A stretch of 51,561 nt of DNA from a virus. The stretch lies in IMG/VR virus record IMGVR_UViG_3300037245_001095, positions 1-51,561 of that record; one strand, 5' to 3'. The notes beneath the pieces were generated by a model. That model was not told where the DNA came from. It worked only from the letters and a program-made list of their open reading frames with translations, and did no database searches. The translations under genes were made by a program, and so were the position numbers. Every line of letters starts with the position of its first letter. Position 1 is the first letter of the stretch. Positions 3,280-44,440 of the stretch are shown piece after piece.

Positions 3280-3730
3280 AGGTGTAGACGGAACAGGAAA
3301 AACAACAAGAGCTAAAGAATTTCCAAGAATATATACAGGTCATTATGATTATATACATAATCATGATAAAACAAGAAAACCTGTTGATATAGAAAGTGAA
3401 GTGACAAAGGAAATGTTACTAATGACATATTGTGATAAGATTTTATTTGATCGCAGTTATATTATATCAGAATATATTTATTCTAAAGTTCTAAGAAGAG
3501 AAACTCCCGTGACACTTGATTATGTCAAAGCTCTTATTGAATTGATAAACTTAAGAAGTCATACAGTTAATTTATTTGTTTTTAAGGACAGAGATAAATT
3601 GATTCTTAAAGATGAAGATAGCAAATTACCGTTCATTGAATTGAATAATGCTTATCTACAATTGTTTGATATTGATGTAAAAGTTGAAAGAATGGCAGTT
3701 GTAATTATTGATGATAGGAGTCCAATATGA
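3263..3730 (+). CDS. Deoxynucleoside monophosphate / thymidylate kinase-like P-loop protein
   Basis: The N-terminus reads IIFEGVDGTGKTT, a typical P-loop of the thymidylate kinase/dNMP kinase family (GVDGTGKTT at 7-15). LFDRSYIISEYIY further on resembles the DR(Y/S) region that contacts the nucleotide. At 155 residues it is shorter than bacterial Tmk (about 210). It overlaps the helicase by 17 bases and the ThyX gene by 4 (ATGA), so the genes are translationally coupled. The exact nucleotide substrate cannot be read from sequence; dTMP is the natural guess beside ThyX. Confidence 0.8.
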   Translation: MSIIFEGVDGTGKTTRAKEFPRIYTGHYDYIHNHDKTRKPVDIESEVTKEMLLMTYCDKILFDRSYIISEYIYSKVLRRETPVTLDYVKALIELINLRSHTVNLFVFKDRDKLILKDEDSKLPFIELNNAYLQLFDIDVKVERMAVVIIDDRSPI

Positions 3731-4326
3731 AAATGATTAAACAATATATTAAAGTAATCACACCAGAAAGTGAATATAAAGTATTCGCCTCGCGTATAGA
3801 GAATATCGCACGGGTCTGTTATCAGTCAGCTGGTAAAGATGTAACATCAAAATTTATTCGTAGCTTAATTAAAAGTGGTCATGAGGCAATGATTGAACAT
3901 AGTAGTTTATCAATTTCATTTATCACTGATCGTGCTACAGCAAATGCTCTTGTAAGACATAGACATTGTTCCTTTGCACAGGAGAGTACACACTATATCA
4001 ATTATGCCAAAAAGTATGGTGATCTTACTTGTATAAGACAAGTAGCAATTGAAGATCAAGAGACTTTTGAATCAATGTTATATGACATTGAAAGTGATTA
4101 TATTAAATTGAGTAACGAAAAGTCAAAAGCTAAAAGAGCTTTATTACCATTAGCCTTTAAGACTGAGTTGGTTATCACAACAAACTTAAGTGAATGGAGA
4201 TCAATCTTGAAACGAAGAACTTCAAAGAAAGCTCATCCTCAAATGCAAGATATTATGCTTAAGGTACTTGATTGGTTTAAACAAGAATTACCAATATTTG
4301 TGGAGGATATAGATGCAGAAAGATAA
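3727..4326 (+). CDS. thyX: Flavin-dependent thymidylate synthase ThyX
   Basis: It makes dTMP from dUMP using FAD and methylene-tetrahydrofolate. The ThyX signature RHRX7S is present as R77-H78-R79 ... S87 (RHRHCSFAQES), followed by a tyrosine-rich stretch. EHSSLSISF at about 58 is the conserved segment that normally precedes it. The length of 199 residues is slightly short for the family. It starts inside the stop of the kinase gene (ATGA) with AGGAG upstream and overlaps the MazG-like gene at its end, forming a nucleotide-supply block. I see no sign of an altered catalytic residue. Confidence 0.93.
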   Translation: MKMIKQYIKVITPESEYKVFASRIENIARVCYQSAGKDVTSKFIRSLIKSGHEAMIEHSSLSISFITDRATANALVRHRHCSFAQESTHYINYAKKYGDLTCIRQVAIEDQETFESMLYDIESDYIKLSNEKSKAKRALLPLAFKTELVITTNLSEWRSILKRRTSKKAHPQMQDIMLKVLDWFKQELPIFVEDIDAER

Positions 4327-5757: not shown

Positions 5758-7702
5758 GAAAATGGGTAATATAATATCTCTTGATACAGAGACAAAAGAC
5801 CCGCTATTGACAAATAAGAAGAAGTCATTGCCAAGTGGCCCGGGAGTCTTTAGAAGTACTCCACATGACTATCGTAATGAACATGGTTATCTTCTTGGTG
5901 TATCAATGGGTGATGAACATGGCAATAAATGCTATCTCAATTTAGGACATTACGAAGCAACAAAAGAATTAAGGGATGTCAATGTCAAATATTTAAAAGA
6001 AACCTTGGCACAGGCTGACACGATCATTGGCCAGAATCTGCTATATGATCTTGATTGGTTAGAGAATTGGTTAGGCATTAAGGTCAATGGTACCTTGATT
6101 GATGTTGGTGTTGCTGAAGCTCTGCTTGATGAAAATCAAGGTAAATACAACCTTGACTTCATGGGCATCAAGTATTTTGGTGAAGGCGAAGGCAAAGCAA
6201 AAGATAAAATACAGCAATTTTGTGACGATAATAATCTTAAAGGCGATGTTCGTAAATGGTTATGGAAAATGCCACATTATCTTGTTGAAGAATATGCTAT
6301 AAGAGATATTGAGCTTCCTATGAATATCTGGAAGATACAGGAACCTCTTCTTGAGGCAGAAGATCTAATGCCATTGATGAATCTTGAATGTGATCTATTA
6401 AGAGTACTACTTGTAATGCGAAAGAATGGTGTCAGAATTGATGAAGCCTTACGTAAATCAGCAGCTGATGAACTATATAGTTTAGTTAAAGAGAAACAAA
6501 CTTGGATAGACAAAGAAGTTGGTTTTCCAGTTAAATTCAGAAGTTCTAAACATCTTGCTTTTATATTTGACGAAAATAATATGCCTTATCCGATGACAGA
6601 CCCATCTAAAACTTATCCTTATGGTCAACCATCAGTACCACGTGACCATTTATTAAGATTAGCAAAAGGTCAATTAACTGGTTTTGATGCTGAAAAGATT
6701 ACTGACCCAAGACTATTAGAGATTGGACAATGTTTAGCAGACTTAAAAAGAGCTGATAAAGTTGTGAGTTCATTTGTTGATGGTAGTCTATTAAGATTTC
6801 AAACAGAAGGTAACTTAATTCATTGTAGTTTCTATCCAATGCGAACAGATGAATATGGCACGAGGTCTGGAAGATTTTCAAGTGCGAATCCAAACCTACA
6901 GCAAATACCATCAACTACTGTTGATATGTACTATGGCACATTAACACGTCGGCCATTTGTACCACTTGAAGATCATCTATGGCTTAAACTTGATTATTCA
7001 CAAATTGAATATCGATTCATGGCCCACTTTGCACGTGGCCAGGGAGCAGATGCTGTTAGAGAACAATATAATTTTAATCCAAGAACTGACTATCATAAAA
7101 TGATTGAAGATTTAACAGGATTGAAAAGAAGGTATGCAAAGAATTTAAATTTTGGTGTGGCATATGGGATGGGAGCAAAACATATGGCTGAGTTCTTTCA
7201 ATGGGATTTAGATTATTGTTATGATATACTTCGTATATATCATGCTAATGCACCATTTATTAAGAGTACAATTAAGGCGGTTGAACGAAGAGTGAAAGAT
7301 AAAGGTTATATCAGAACCTTCTTAAAAAGACGGTCACGTCTGATTGATAAGAATAAGGCTTATACAATGTTTTGTCGTTTGACACAAGGTTCAGCCGCAG
7401 ACCTTATGAAGAAAGGTATGTATGAAGTTTACAAAGCTGGAATATTTAATACACTCATACCAAGTTTAACTGTACATGATGAAATTGATTGTTCAATGCC
7501 AATCACAAAAGAAGGTATGGAAGCTGCACGTGAGGCTAAACATATCATGGAAACATGTATTGAATTAAAAGTACCAATCATTGCAGATATGGAGATTGGC
7601 AAAAATTGGGCCAAGTTAACTGCAGTTGATAAAGAATGGATTGGCTTAACAAAAGCCGAAGAAATGGCAGACTTTGAAAAGAAAGTAAAGGAGATTGCAT
7701 AA
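5750..7702 (+). CDS. Family A DNA polymerase with 3'-5' exonuclease domain
   Basis: The 650-residue replicative polymerase carries both activities. Exonuclease motifs: D12/E14 (SLDTETKDP), IIGQNLLYDLDWL and YAIRD. Polymerase motifs: A, D415YSQIEYR; B, K464NLNFGVAYG; C, H576DE. The palm aspartates needed for catalysis (D415, D577) are present. I chose ATG at 5750 (MYEKMGNI); an earlier in-frame ATG at 5618 would add 44 residues lying wholly inside the preceding gene. The stop overlaps the SSB start. It should act with the AEP primase and SSB as the core replisome. Confidence 0.95.
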   Translation: MYEKMGNIISLDTETKDPLLTNKKKSLPSGPGVFRSTPHDYRNEHGYLLGVSMGDEHGNKCYLNLGHYEATKELRDVNVKYLKETLAQADTIIGQNLLYDLDWLENWLGIKVNGTLIDVGVAEALLDENQGKYNLDFMGIKYFGEGEGKAKDKIQQFCDDNNLKGDVRKWLWKMPHYLVEEYAIRDIELPMNIWKIQEPLLEAEDLMPLMNLECDLLRVLLVMRKNGVRIDEALRKSAADELYSLVKEKQTWIDKEVGFPVKFRSSKHLAFIFDENNMPYPMTDPSKTYPYGQPSVPRDHLLRLAKGQLTGFDAEKITDPRLLEIGQCLADLKRADKVVSSFVDGSLLRFQTEGNLIHCSFYPMRTDEYGTRSGRFSSANPNLQQIPSTTVDMYYGTLTRRPFVPLEDHLWLKLDYSQIEYRFMAHFARGQGADAVREQYNFNPRTDYHKMIEDLTGLKRRYAKNLNFGVAYGMGAKHMAEFFQWDLDYCYDILRIYHANAPFIKSTIKAVERRVKDKGYIRTFLKRRSRLIDKNKAYTMFCRLTQGSAADLMKKGMYEVYKAGIFNTLIPSLTVHDEIDCSMPITKEGMEAAREAKHIMETCIELKVPIIADMEIGKNWAKLTAVDKEWIGLTKAEEMADFEKKVKEIA

Positions 7703-43252: not shown

Positions 43253-43323
43253 TGGTGTGTAGCTCAGGCTGGTACGAGCGCTGTTGATCACGGAGGTCAG
43301 AGGTTCAAATCCTCTCACATCAT
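43253..43323 (+). tRNA. tRNA-like gene, tRNA-Ile(GAU)-like with shortened anticodon stem
   Basis: Acceptor TGGTGTG (43253-43259) pairs with CACATCA (43316-43322), one G-U. D-arm GCTC/GAGC (43262-43279). T-arm AGAGG-TTCAAAT-CCTCT (43299-43315). The anticodon arm is only 13 bases, CTG-TTGATCA-CGG, a 3-bp stem instead of 5; the loop would place GAT (isoleucine) as anticodon but with C instead of a purine at position 37. No CCA is encoded. A decayed tRNA or a decoy is as likely as a working tRNA. Confidence 0.6.
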
Positions 43324-43351: not shown

Positions 43352-43744
43352 ATGAAAAAGATTTTAAGTTTGGCATTATTGGTATTAGTAATTATGTTGT
43401 TTGCTAGCTGTAGTTTGATAGAAACTACTGATGCAGATGTCGCATCCTACAATTTATCTAAAGATGCTGACATGTTCAGGATCAATCGAAGAGTTGTATT
43501 CTATAATGGGATTACTGATGCATATATCTTGTCTATAGAGGGAAGAAGTTCTGTAGAGTTCTTTCCTGATAAGTTTGTTGTTACTGTTAAAACAGGCCCT
43601 AATGAATACAAGAAGCATTACCTTGGTAGAGCTGATAATGTTTTCCCTTTTGTTGAACAGCTTGATGCCGTACCTGTTGATGTATATCATTATAAAGTAA
43701 TCTTTAAGCCTTCAGTAATTATACCAGATATAGAAATTAAATGA
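43352..43744 (+). CDS. Phage beta-sandwich lipoprotein
   Basis: 130 residues. The signal KKILSLALLVLVIMLFASC gives a lipobox with Cys20. The mature part has YNLSKDADMFRINRRVVFYN, TGPNEYKKHYLGRADN and a C-terminal VYHYKVIFKPS, which I recognise as a widespread phage lipoprotein family predicted to be a beta sandwich. Family members are suspected to act in superinfection exclusion. SD GGAG at 43341 lies in a 5-bp hairpin (CCTTA/TAAGG) that may limit translation. Confidence 0.7.
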   Translation: MKKILSLALLVLVIMLFASCSLIETTDADVASYNLSKDADMFRINRRVVFYNGITDAYILSIEGRSSVEFFPDKFVVTVKTGPNEYKKHYLGRADNVFPFVEQLDAVPVDVYHYKVIFKPSVIIPDIEIK

Positions 43745-43762: not shown

Positions 43763-44089
43763 ATGAAAAGAGCTCGCTTACTAATGCTGTTGCTGATAGC
43801 ATTGCTGGTAGCTCTACCAGTGGCAGCAGGCACATTAAATGTGTCTAACAACCTATTGATGGTTGAACCAATTGAAACCAAGATTGCACTTGAGGAGGTA
43901 TCTATCAATTATAATGTAGCTAATGAAGCATTAGTTACTTCAGTTGCTGATATTACATTGTGGCCAGCAATAGTAATTATAATGATGATAACAATGGTAT
44001 TATTTACCGGTTTTATCAATATGATAAAAGATCGGAACAAATACAAAAACATGGGAGGAGTCCCGATGTATTCGTCGGGGCATACTTGA
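43763..44089 (+). CDS. Exported membrane protein
   Basis: 108 residues with a cleavable signal (LLMLLLIALLVALPVAAG, cleavage near 22) and a second TM segment (about 68-87, WPAIVIIMMITMVLFTG). AAGGAGG precedes ATG. It lies between the two tRNA-like genes and follows the lipoprotein gene, so the two may act together at the envelope. Function unknown. Confidence 0.65.
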   Translation: MKRARLLMLLLIALLVALPVAAGTLNVSNNLLMVEPIETKIALEEVSINYNVANEALVTSVADITLWPAIVIIMMITMVLFTGFINMIKDRNKYKNMGGVPMYSSGHT

Positions 44090-44128
44090 GTACCTAATCC
44101 CATGATAAATGAAAATCGGACATAATAA

Positions 44129-44155
44129 GATCGGCGGATTGATCATCTGCCGATC
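44129..44155 (+). terminator. Strong hairpin upstream of second tRNA-like gene
   Basis: GATCGGCGGAT (44129-44139) pairs with ATCTGCCGATC (44145-44155), 11 bp with one G-U and loop TGATC, then ATTTAAC. Probably ends the lipoprotein/membrane unit or defines the 5' end of the RNA that follows. Confidence 0.65.
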
Positions 44156-44164
44156 ATTTAACAA

Positions 44165-44313
44165 GTGACAGTGGCGTAATTGGTAAACGCACTCAGACGT
44201 GAGGTTAAGTAATGCGGAAAGTAATAAACTGCTTTCAGAAATGGGATAATAGTAAACCATCGCCGAAAGGTTAGTAGCATTGTTCTATGCAGGTTCGAGT
44301 CCTGTCTGTCGCA
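44165..44313 (+). ncRNA. tRNA-like RNA with long structured insert and mini-ORF
   Basis: 149 bases. Acceptor GTGACAG (44165-44171) pairs with CTGTCGC (44306-44312) and A is the discriminator. A Leu-like D-arm GCG...CGC is at 44174-44190. The T-arm is 44289-44305 with loop TTCGAGT. Between them are a short hairpin CTCA/TGAG (44192-44203), an 8-bp stem with two wobbles (44208-44215 with 44277-44284) and an inner domain where CTTTC (44232-44236) can pair with GAAAG on either side. A frame ATG 44212 to TAG 44274 (20 codons) with GAGG 7 bases upstream is enclosed by the long stem. No canonical anticodon arm was found. Confidence 0.55.
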
Positions 44314-44440
44314 TATTAAGGGTATGCGTATGCATTACTACTTAATAAAAATCTGGTATCCCTGAATCAGATCAATAGCAACCAACTTGAGTGGCTTAGA
44401 CCGGTACTGCAGGGAGTACCAATTTTATGGAGGTAGAGAA
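44314..44440 (+). other. Leader with hairpins before zinc-ribbon gene
   Basis: CGCATA/TATGCG spans the end of the tRNA-like RNA. GGTACT (44403-44408) and AGTACC (44415-44420) form a 6-bp hairpin 20 bases before the ATG at 44441. An in-frame ATG at 44387 has no good ribosome site and was rejected as start. Confidence 0.45.

Follow-up and report, generated by a model that had tools for sequence, protein, structure and literature searches.

The window, by which we mean the whole 51,561-base virus record analyzed here (annotated with phage helicase, DNA polymerase, terminase, and tape-measure genes), encodes at 44165-44313 a tRNA-like RNA without an anticodon arm, the reality of which is strongly supported. 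It belongs to a class of anticodon-less RNAs with a tRNA-Leu shell in phages, which is well supported and highly probable. The class appears to be previously undescribed. In functional terms, we favor, at a probability of about 0.45, the reading that the locus encodes a stand-alone non-coding RNA, in which a tRNA-Leu shell carries an exchangeable, often pseudoknotted domain, and which acts in trans as a tRNA-Leu mimic.

A tRNA Shell without an Anticodon Arm

The gene sits between an ORF ending at 44089 and an ORF starting at about 44441. The Rfam tRNA model (RF00005) matches 44165-44313 over model positions 1-71 with 35 bits against a cut-off of 29, and the alignment skips the model's anticodon arm across 77 nt of the RNA. 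In the Rfam scan of the window, the only further match is a tRNA-Ile at 43253-43323, and in a permissive Rfam search the tRNA match is the sole one over the cut-off for the window RNA. ARAGORN, run without introns, reported the tRNA-Ile alone in the window and did not call the RNA. A custom shell scanner, which looks for a paired acceptor enclosing U8, a D arm, and a T arm and leaves the gap length free, found two sites in the 51.6-kb window, namely the tRNA-Ile and the 44165-44313 RNA. In block-shuffled loci totaling 2.07 Mb, the same scanner found a single site, with 6/7 acceptor pairs, and we therefore reject a chance origin of the shell.

The first-pass annotation had proposed an RNA at these coordinates with canonical acceptor, D, and T arms, all of which Rfam and the scanner confirm. 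It had also noted the absence of an anticodon arm; none appears in the fold, and in the class described below pairing at this place is at shuffle level. Homologues with compensatory changes in the arms, which it had advised looking for, exist, and a covariance search for a known intron or RNA type matched nothing except the tRNA shell. The features of the RNA, with the evidence for each, are as follows:

44165-44313, + strand: whole tRNA-like RNA gene of 149 nt, discriminator base included (full-length RF00005 match, shell scanner)
44165-44171, + strand: acceptor 5′ strand GTGACAG (7/7 pairs with 44306-44312, one of them G-U)
44174-44190, + strand: D arm of tRNA-Leu type, loop GG, stem 44174-44177/44187-44190 (sequence, Rfam alignment, scanner)
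44192-44203, + strand: hairpin CTCA-GACG-TGAG at the position where an anticodon arm would start (fold)
44203-44206, + strand: possible pseudoknot strand GGTT, with partner AACC at 44255-44258, inside the loop closed by the helix that abuts the T stem (p 0.19 against shuffles)
44212-44274, + strand: 20-codon ORF, regarded as chance (class ORF count against shuffles)
44217-44236, + strand: hairpin GAAAGTA/TGCTTTC (minimum-energy fold)
44241-44288, + strand: predicted helix 44241-44250/44279-44288 adjoining the T stem (minimum-energy fold)
44288, + strand: T48, partner of A15 in a core tertiary pair (sequence; T in 118/121 class members)
44289-44305, + strand: T arm GCAGG-TTCGAGT-CCTGT with a 5-bp stem (Rfam alignment, pair scoring)
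44306-44313, + strand: acceptor 3′ strand CTGTCGC and discriminator A (44313), CCA not encoded (sequence, Rfam alignment)

The D arm is assigned to the tRNA-Leu type by its consensus. Three other elements flank the gene. An inverted repeat, CATGGGA/TCCCATG around a CCCGA/TCGGG hairpin, occupies 44050-44104, overlaps the end of the ORF at 43763-44089, and may be another structured RNA; a strong hairpin, GATCGGC/GCCGATC, lies at about 44130-44156; and a terminator-like hairpin, GGTACT-GCAGGG-AGTACC, is found at 44403-44420, directly before the start of the next gene.

The Window Insert and Its Reading Frame

The insert, given as 97 bases in the first-pass annotation, measures 98 nt as the interval from D stem to T stem. 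The short hairpin described there is present at 44192-44203 (CTCA/TGAG), and its loop cannot be an anticodon loop because it has only 4 nt. An 8-bp helix had also been drawn at 44208-44215/44277-44284. These strands can pair, but the minimum-energy fold prefers 44241-44250/44279-44288, and the two helices are mutually exclusive because the 3′ strand is common to both. The inner eight pairs of the preferred helix (44243-44250/44279-44286) end exactly 2 nt 5′ of the T stem, which is the position favored in the class. The possible pseudoknot was placed by a topology inferred from the SPP1 and SBSphiJ RNAs discussed below, and its strand at 44203-44206 competes with the last pair of the short hairpin. 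Overall, the folding energy of the window RNA is -40.6 kcal/mol, mildly better than shuffles (z -2.1). No relative of the insert was found in any collection searched, from which records very near the window were possibly excluded; blastn of the RNA against phages gave short tRNA-arm matches only, and searches with exact window patterns and neighboring proteins recovered no close relative. The inner fold of the window insert is thus a prediction from one sequence. The nearest phage relatives, the two records L002 and L003 (helicase identity about 55%), lack tRNA genes altogether, and the RNA is absent from them.

The 20-codon ORF (MRKVINCFQKWDNSKPSPKG) does exist at 44212-44274, with an SD-like GAGG and an ATG suitably spaced, but ORFs of this kind occur at chance level in the class. 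Among 76 class inserts of at least 60 nt, 9 contain an ORF against 7.3 in shuffles, and 2 have an ORF with a Shine-Dalgarno-like site against 0.8.

The RNA Class in Viral Contigs

A scan of viral contigs for Leu-type D arms with a T arm at a distance of 86-116 nt returned at least 120 stretches. Among the matches listed, 43 of 119 scored sites have, like the window, all 7/7 acceptor and 3/3 scored T-stem pairs (one more site, L025, could not be scored because its contig ends close by). Inspection showed that 4 of these 43 are intron-bearing or tandem ordinary tRNAs, and that the remaining scored sites mostly combine D and T arms from neighboring tRNAs. The acceptor AGTCAGG/CCTGACT recurs among the well-paired sites. 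A second viral scan, for this acceptor followed by the D arm, returned at least 120 stretches with at least 126 sites; a T arm follows within 175 nt in 116 of the 126 sites listed, at a spacing of 22 to 142 nt. The same AGTCAGG D-arm pattern occurs in three stretches among 84,980 prokaryote genomes, all on short contigs.

Together, the pattern scans of viral contigs define a class of at least 121 non-redundant members, the window's own included, after 24 of 145 were dropped as redundant and with only the 7/7 plus 3/3 rows taken from the first scan. Near misses (e.g., L048, L106, L019, and L062) stand outside this set, and five sites (L007, L080, L105, L119, and L097) were removed manually as ordinary tRNAs that carry introns or stand in tandem. 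Two of these five, L007 (2870-3005) and L080 (3273-3424), read as tRNA-Leu genes with small introns in the anticodon loop, the L080 insert including a T-arm-like hairpin; at two further sites, L030 and L098, the tRNA insertions resemble archaeal introns.

The window RNA shares the hallmarks of the class, i.e., a 7/7 acceptor, a full T stem, a Leu-type D arm, and an insert without an anticodon arm. Position 48 is T in 118/121 members (44288 in the window), which suits an A15-U48 core pair, and the discriminator is A in 95/121. Anticodon-arm pairing does not rise above shuffles across the 121 members, with 5/5 pairs in 6 members against 3.1 and 4/5 in 21 against 21.9. Running the shell scanner over 237 loci (2.07 Mb) gave 966 sites, 740 of which overlap ARAGORN tRNAs; the 226 that do not, which are no natural frequency since the loci were preselected by tRNA-arm patterns, comprise 171 with a Leu-type D arm and 55 with other D arms. 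In the members scanned, no Rfam family matched except tRNA, or rliG beside one member, and the literature searched, in which subscription journals are thinly covered, holds no description of the class.

Shells are constant across class members, and inserts are hypervariable. The class insert carries structure next to the T stem. Helices whose 3′ strand stops exactly 2 nt short of the T stem are much more stable than shuffles (t = -6.7), also when the 3′ strand is held fixed (t = -6.8), but no excess stability over shuffles is seen in the class for helix ends seven or more bases from the T stem. For H-type pseudoknots, 21% of members reach p ≤ 0.05, compared with an expected 5%; the window (p 0.19) is not one of them. 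In the three shortest members, the D and T stems are just 20 nt apart. Separately, four non-Leu tRNA shells (L016, L116, L120, and L061) have inserts with a common CAGCAAT motif and are perhaps a separate insert class.

Relatives in Isolate Phages

A blastn search with the RNA of one contig matched unannotated places in isolate phages. Related unannotated RNAs are present in the Bacillus phages SPP1, SBSphiJ, and phi3T, and in phages of Weissella, Leuconostoc, Lactobacillus, Enterococcus, and Listeria. At 19 of 20 isolate loci, the acceptor has 7/7 and the T stem 6/6 pairs; the exception, phi3T, has one extra C, as seen by eye, and was left outside the shell count. The 19 isolates collapse to 14 distinct shells, in which all 13 columns are 100% paired, a figure helped by the selection of rows at ≥6/7 acceptor pairs and no more than one T-stem pair missing; a single column shows as many as four pair types. 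Random dealing of strands on the same shells gives 70% pairing, with a maximum of 88% in 2000 trials. The isolates share a TGCAAAT T loop, a 6-bp T stem, and a 13-bp acceptor/T stack, while the window RNA has TTCGAGT, 5 bp, and a 12-bp stack; we infer that the isolate RNAs are a sister group of the window RNA within one class.

The SPP1 RNA lies between gene 9 and the scaffold gene 11, in the late region, at about 6650-6759 by offset. The 2018 re-annotation of SPP1 lists an ORF 10 of unassigned function at 6583-6750 and a terminator at 6780-6824 (PMC6316719). We read that terminator as belonging to a second small tRNA-like element, of which it would form the T and acceptor arm. SPP1-like phages (L232 at about 515-562, from SPP1 X89721, and L243-L247) also have acceptor-plus-T-arm elements with no clear D arm, and the series of such elements at the RNA locus differs from phage to phage.

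Similar RNAs are carried by unrelated phages of B. subtilis: SPP1 shares its RNA with Herelleviridae phages (81-84% over the RNA), and SBSphiJ matches phi3T at 78%. At one tRNA-array locus in two related Bacillus phages, the Nitunavirus Grass and SBSphiJ, the shells are nearly identical and the inserts different throughout, and by alignment the insert of Grass is common to SPP1. The insert domain at this locus has thus been replaced as a whole, with the shell kept. Within one insert type, seven SBSphiJ-type RNAs fit a pseudoknotted insert structure that pairs 97.1% of cells, and pairing falls below 48% when the partners are slid. Five pairs differ on both sides, compared with 2.3 for shuffles; 2 of 500 shuffles reach five. 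Helix 4 of this structure is paired in only 85% of cells, and the pairs of the pseudoknot itself prove nothing because their columns never vary.

Genomic Context

The RNA is intergenic, and the neighboring ORFs are mostly on its strand (97/111 downstream, 99/113 upstream). The start of the same-strand downstream ORF lies within 60 nt in 34 of 97 cases and beyond 200 nt in 39. An ordinary tRNA occurs within 600 nt of 49 of the 121 members, so that the context is mixed, and no constant downstream gene was found in the annotations read. In phage EFDG1 (L258 1-528), 2 nt separate a tmRNA from the 205-nt class member that follows it, an arrangement that would require cutting between the two RNAs. 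In a viral contig (L094), an Rfam match to permuted tmRNA at 3650-3884 (55.9 bits) lies roughly 30 nt 5′ of a class member at 3915-4063.

Two other recurring elements were observed beside class members. One is a second conserved, structured-looking RNA (ACACGTTCCG ... GATGAGAAA ... GGGAACGTA), found at these sites:

L229, 3495-3700: second structured-looking RNA
L056, 2310-2550, - strand: second structured-looking RNA
L180, 3′ of the class RNA: second structured-looking RNA

The other is a recurring segment (GTGTTGTTCCCTTGAGAAAGGAA ...) that adjoins class members in L215 (- strand, 7528-7630) and L152.

Comparison with Known RNAs

The closest parallel in parts is YrlA (RF02553), a non-coding RNA reported from bacteria and phages, the tRNA-like module of which has D-like and T-like arms, as in the class. 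PMC7790460 gives YrlA a tRNA-like domain. Partial matches of the YrlA model, interpreted through tRNA hits, place the T arm at 31-47 and the D arm at 63-81, so that YrlA would be permuted, with the T arm before the D arm, whereas the class has the order acceptor-D-insert-T-acceptor. The RF02553 search found nothing in the window even at E 10, and none of 16 records exceeded the cut-off. Identity with YrlA is rejected on the missing match in the window and the probable reversal of the arm order. As a separate observation, EFDG1 (KP339049, - strand) has two YrlA-model matches at 43405-43511 (L261) and 43588-43695 with 43.2 and 34.2 bits against a cut-off of 69, which may be divergent Y RNAs.

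tmRNA (RF00023) and permuted tmRNA (RF04321) resemble the class in their tRNA-like ends, long pseudoknotted domain, and lack of an anticodon. tmRNA is not known to have a D stem, whereas the window RNA has a true one, is about 150 nt long, and has no tag frame beyond chance; neither Rfam nor ARAGORN tmRNA models match it. tRNA-Leu itself is similar in the Leu-type D arm, A73, and T48, but the window RNA has no anticodon arm or anticodon. The mascRNA of MALAT1 and the tRNA-like structures of plant viruses are tRNA shells that are read by tRNA enzymes and have no decoding role. Compared by description, these differ in being eukaryotic and in having no known large exchangeable domain on the anticodon side. 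Finally, in Listeria phage LP-LmcIH1-8 (L256 339-646), the 5′ domain of rliG (RF02415) runs straight into a class member; the 3′ part of the rliG model is unaligned there, with the tRNA-like RNA in its place. PMC6786865 describes rliG as an expressed sRNA of Listeria.

Intron, Message, or Relic

Three readings would make the window RNA something other than a functional RNA with a domain of its own. An ordinary tRNA with an intron, either archaeal (bulge-helix-bulge) or self-splicing, is suggested by the insert occupying the usual intron site, and ARAGORN with introns allowed proposes an intron at 31-32, albeit with a mismatched stem; with unlimited introns and a lowered threshold, it returns many overlapping nonsense calls. 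Yet in the window RNA no single excision produces a canonical anticodon arm (0 solutions), the class gives solutions for 2/121 members against 2.5 expected from shuffles, and the three members with 20 nt from D to T are too short for any anticodon arm. The positive controls L007 and L080, both intron-bearing tRNA-Leu genes, give four solutions each against 0.01. We rejected this reading, which is very improbable, since the excision test fails in window and class and the positive controls pass. A tRNA-mRNA chimera on the tmRNA plan, translating MRKVINCFQKWDNSKPSPKG, had been raised by the first-pass annotation and did not survive. The SD-like spacing of GAGG and ATG speaks for it, as do EFDG1 and L094, in which a real tmRNA stands beside the class RNA. 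However, ORFs in the class are no more frequent than chance predicts, ARAGORN in tmRNA mode does not call the window RNA, the peptide has no hydrophobic tag end, the RNA has a D stem, and the 20-nt members have no room for a message. With the ORF at chance level and tmRNA models unmatched, this reading is rejected as exceedingly improbable.

The third reading, a decayed tRNA-Leu gene with inserted junk DNA, draws on the tRNA-Leu-like shell and on a window insert for which no homologue was found. Phage tRNA arrays lose and gain genes, which we counted in its favor. Against decay, the arms of the isolates covary perfectly and covariation is seen in the insert, T48 is kept in 118/121 members, and non-random structure adjoins the T stem. 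We consider decay improbable.

Proposed Function

The mimic that we favor would be matured by host enzymes. The transcript would be cut out by the host tRNA-processing machinery (RNase P, 3′ tRNase), after which the excised RNA would be given CCA and would gain tRNA-like stability from its elbow. It could then be taken for tRNA-Leu by a host protein that reads acceptor and elbow, whether a tRNA-handling or a tRNA-attacking one, and the swappable domain would set which host factor is bound or blocked. LeuRS, which is not known to read the anticodon, could even charge members with A73. Inserts are exchanged within one locus, and unrelated phages of one host share RNAs; together these patterns resemble an arms race, which favors a trans-acting decoy or inhibitor. 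We tentatively suggest such a role in phage-host conflict. The first-pass annotation had likewise named a decoy for host tRNA-targeting systems as a possibility, and the data are compatible with it. In broader terms, and just as tentatively, a large class of phage RNAs may pass as tRNA-Leu and direct a fast-evolving pseudoknot domain against host tRNA-handling or tRNA-targeting defense.

The main alternatives to a decoy or inhibitor are a plain scaffold and a cis element, both of which we judge rather unlikely. As a natural RNA scaffold, the shell would provide processing and stability, and the insert would do the work, for example as a base-pairing small RNA or a protein-binding aptamer, unrelated to tRNA biology. 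Variable inserts in constant shells, the structure of the insert, and the swap between Grass and SBSphiJ with the shell kept are all in line with this, but the 20-nt members leave little room for cargo. As a cis-acting element, the RNA would serve as tRNA-like punctuation for cutting of polycistronic mRNA by RNase P and 3′ tRNase, or as a 5′ leader regulator. This agrees with its intergenic position among co-directional neighbors, the 34/97 downstream starts within 60 nt, and the SPP1 RNA lying in the late region 5′ of scaffold gene 11. It fits poorly with the many members in tRNA arrays or far from starts (39/97 beyond 200 nt) and with the lack of a constant downstream gene, and a plain tRNA could punctuate without a large insert.

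Significance

The class appears to have escaped annotation for two reasons: gene finders require an anticodon, and ORF callers place small ORFs where the RNA lies; gene 10 of SPP1, which overlaps the class RNA, is an example. Since members occur in widely grown B. subtilis phages (SPP1, SBSphiJ, and phi3T), their transcription, processing, and aminoacylation can be tested directly, as can the effect of deleting them. If these RNAs act as scaffolds, they would be a natural counterpart of the engineered tRNA scaffold; if they act as decoys, they would add an RNA arm to phage counter-defense.
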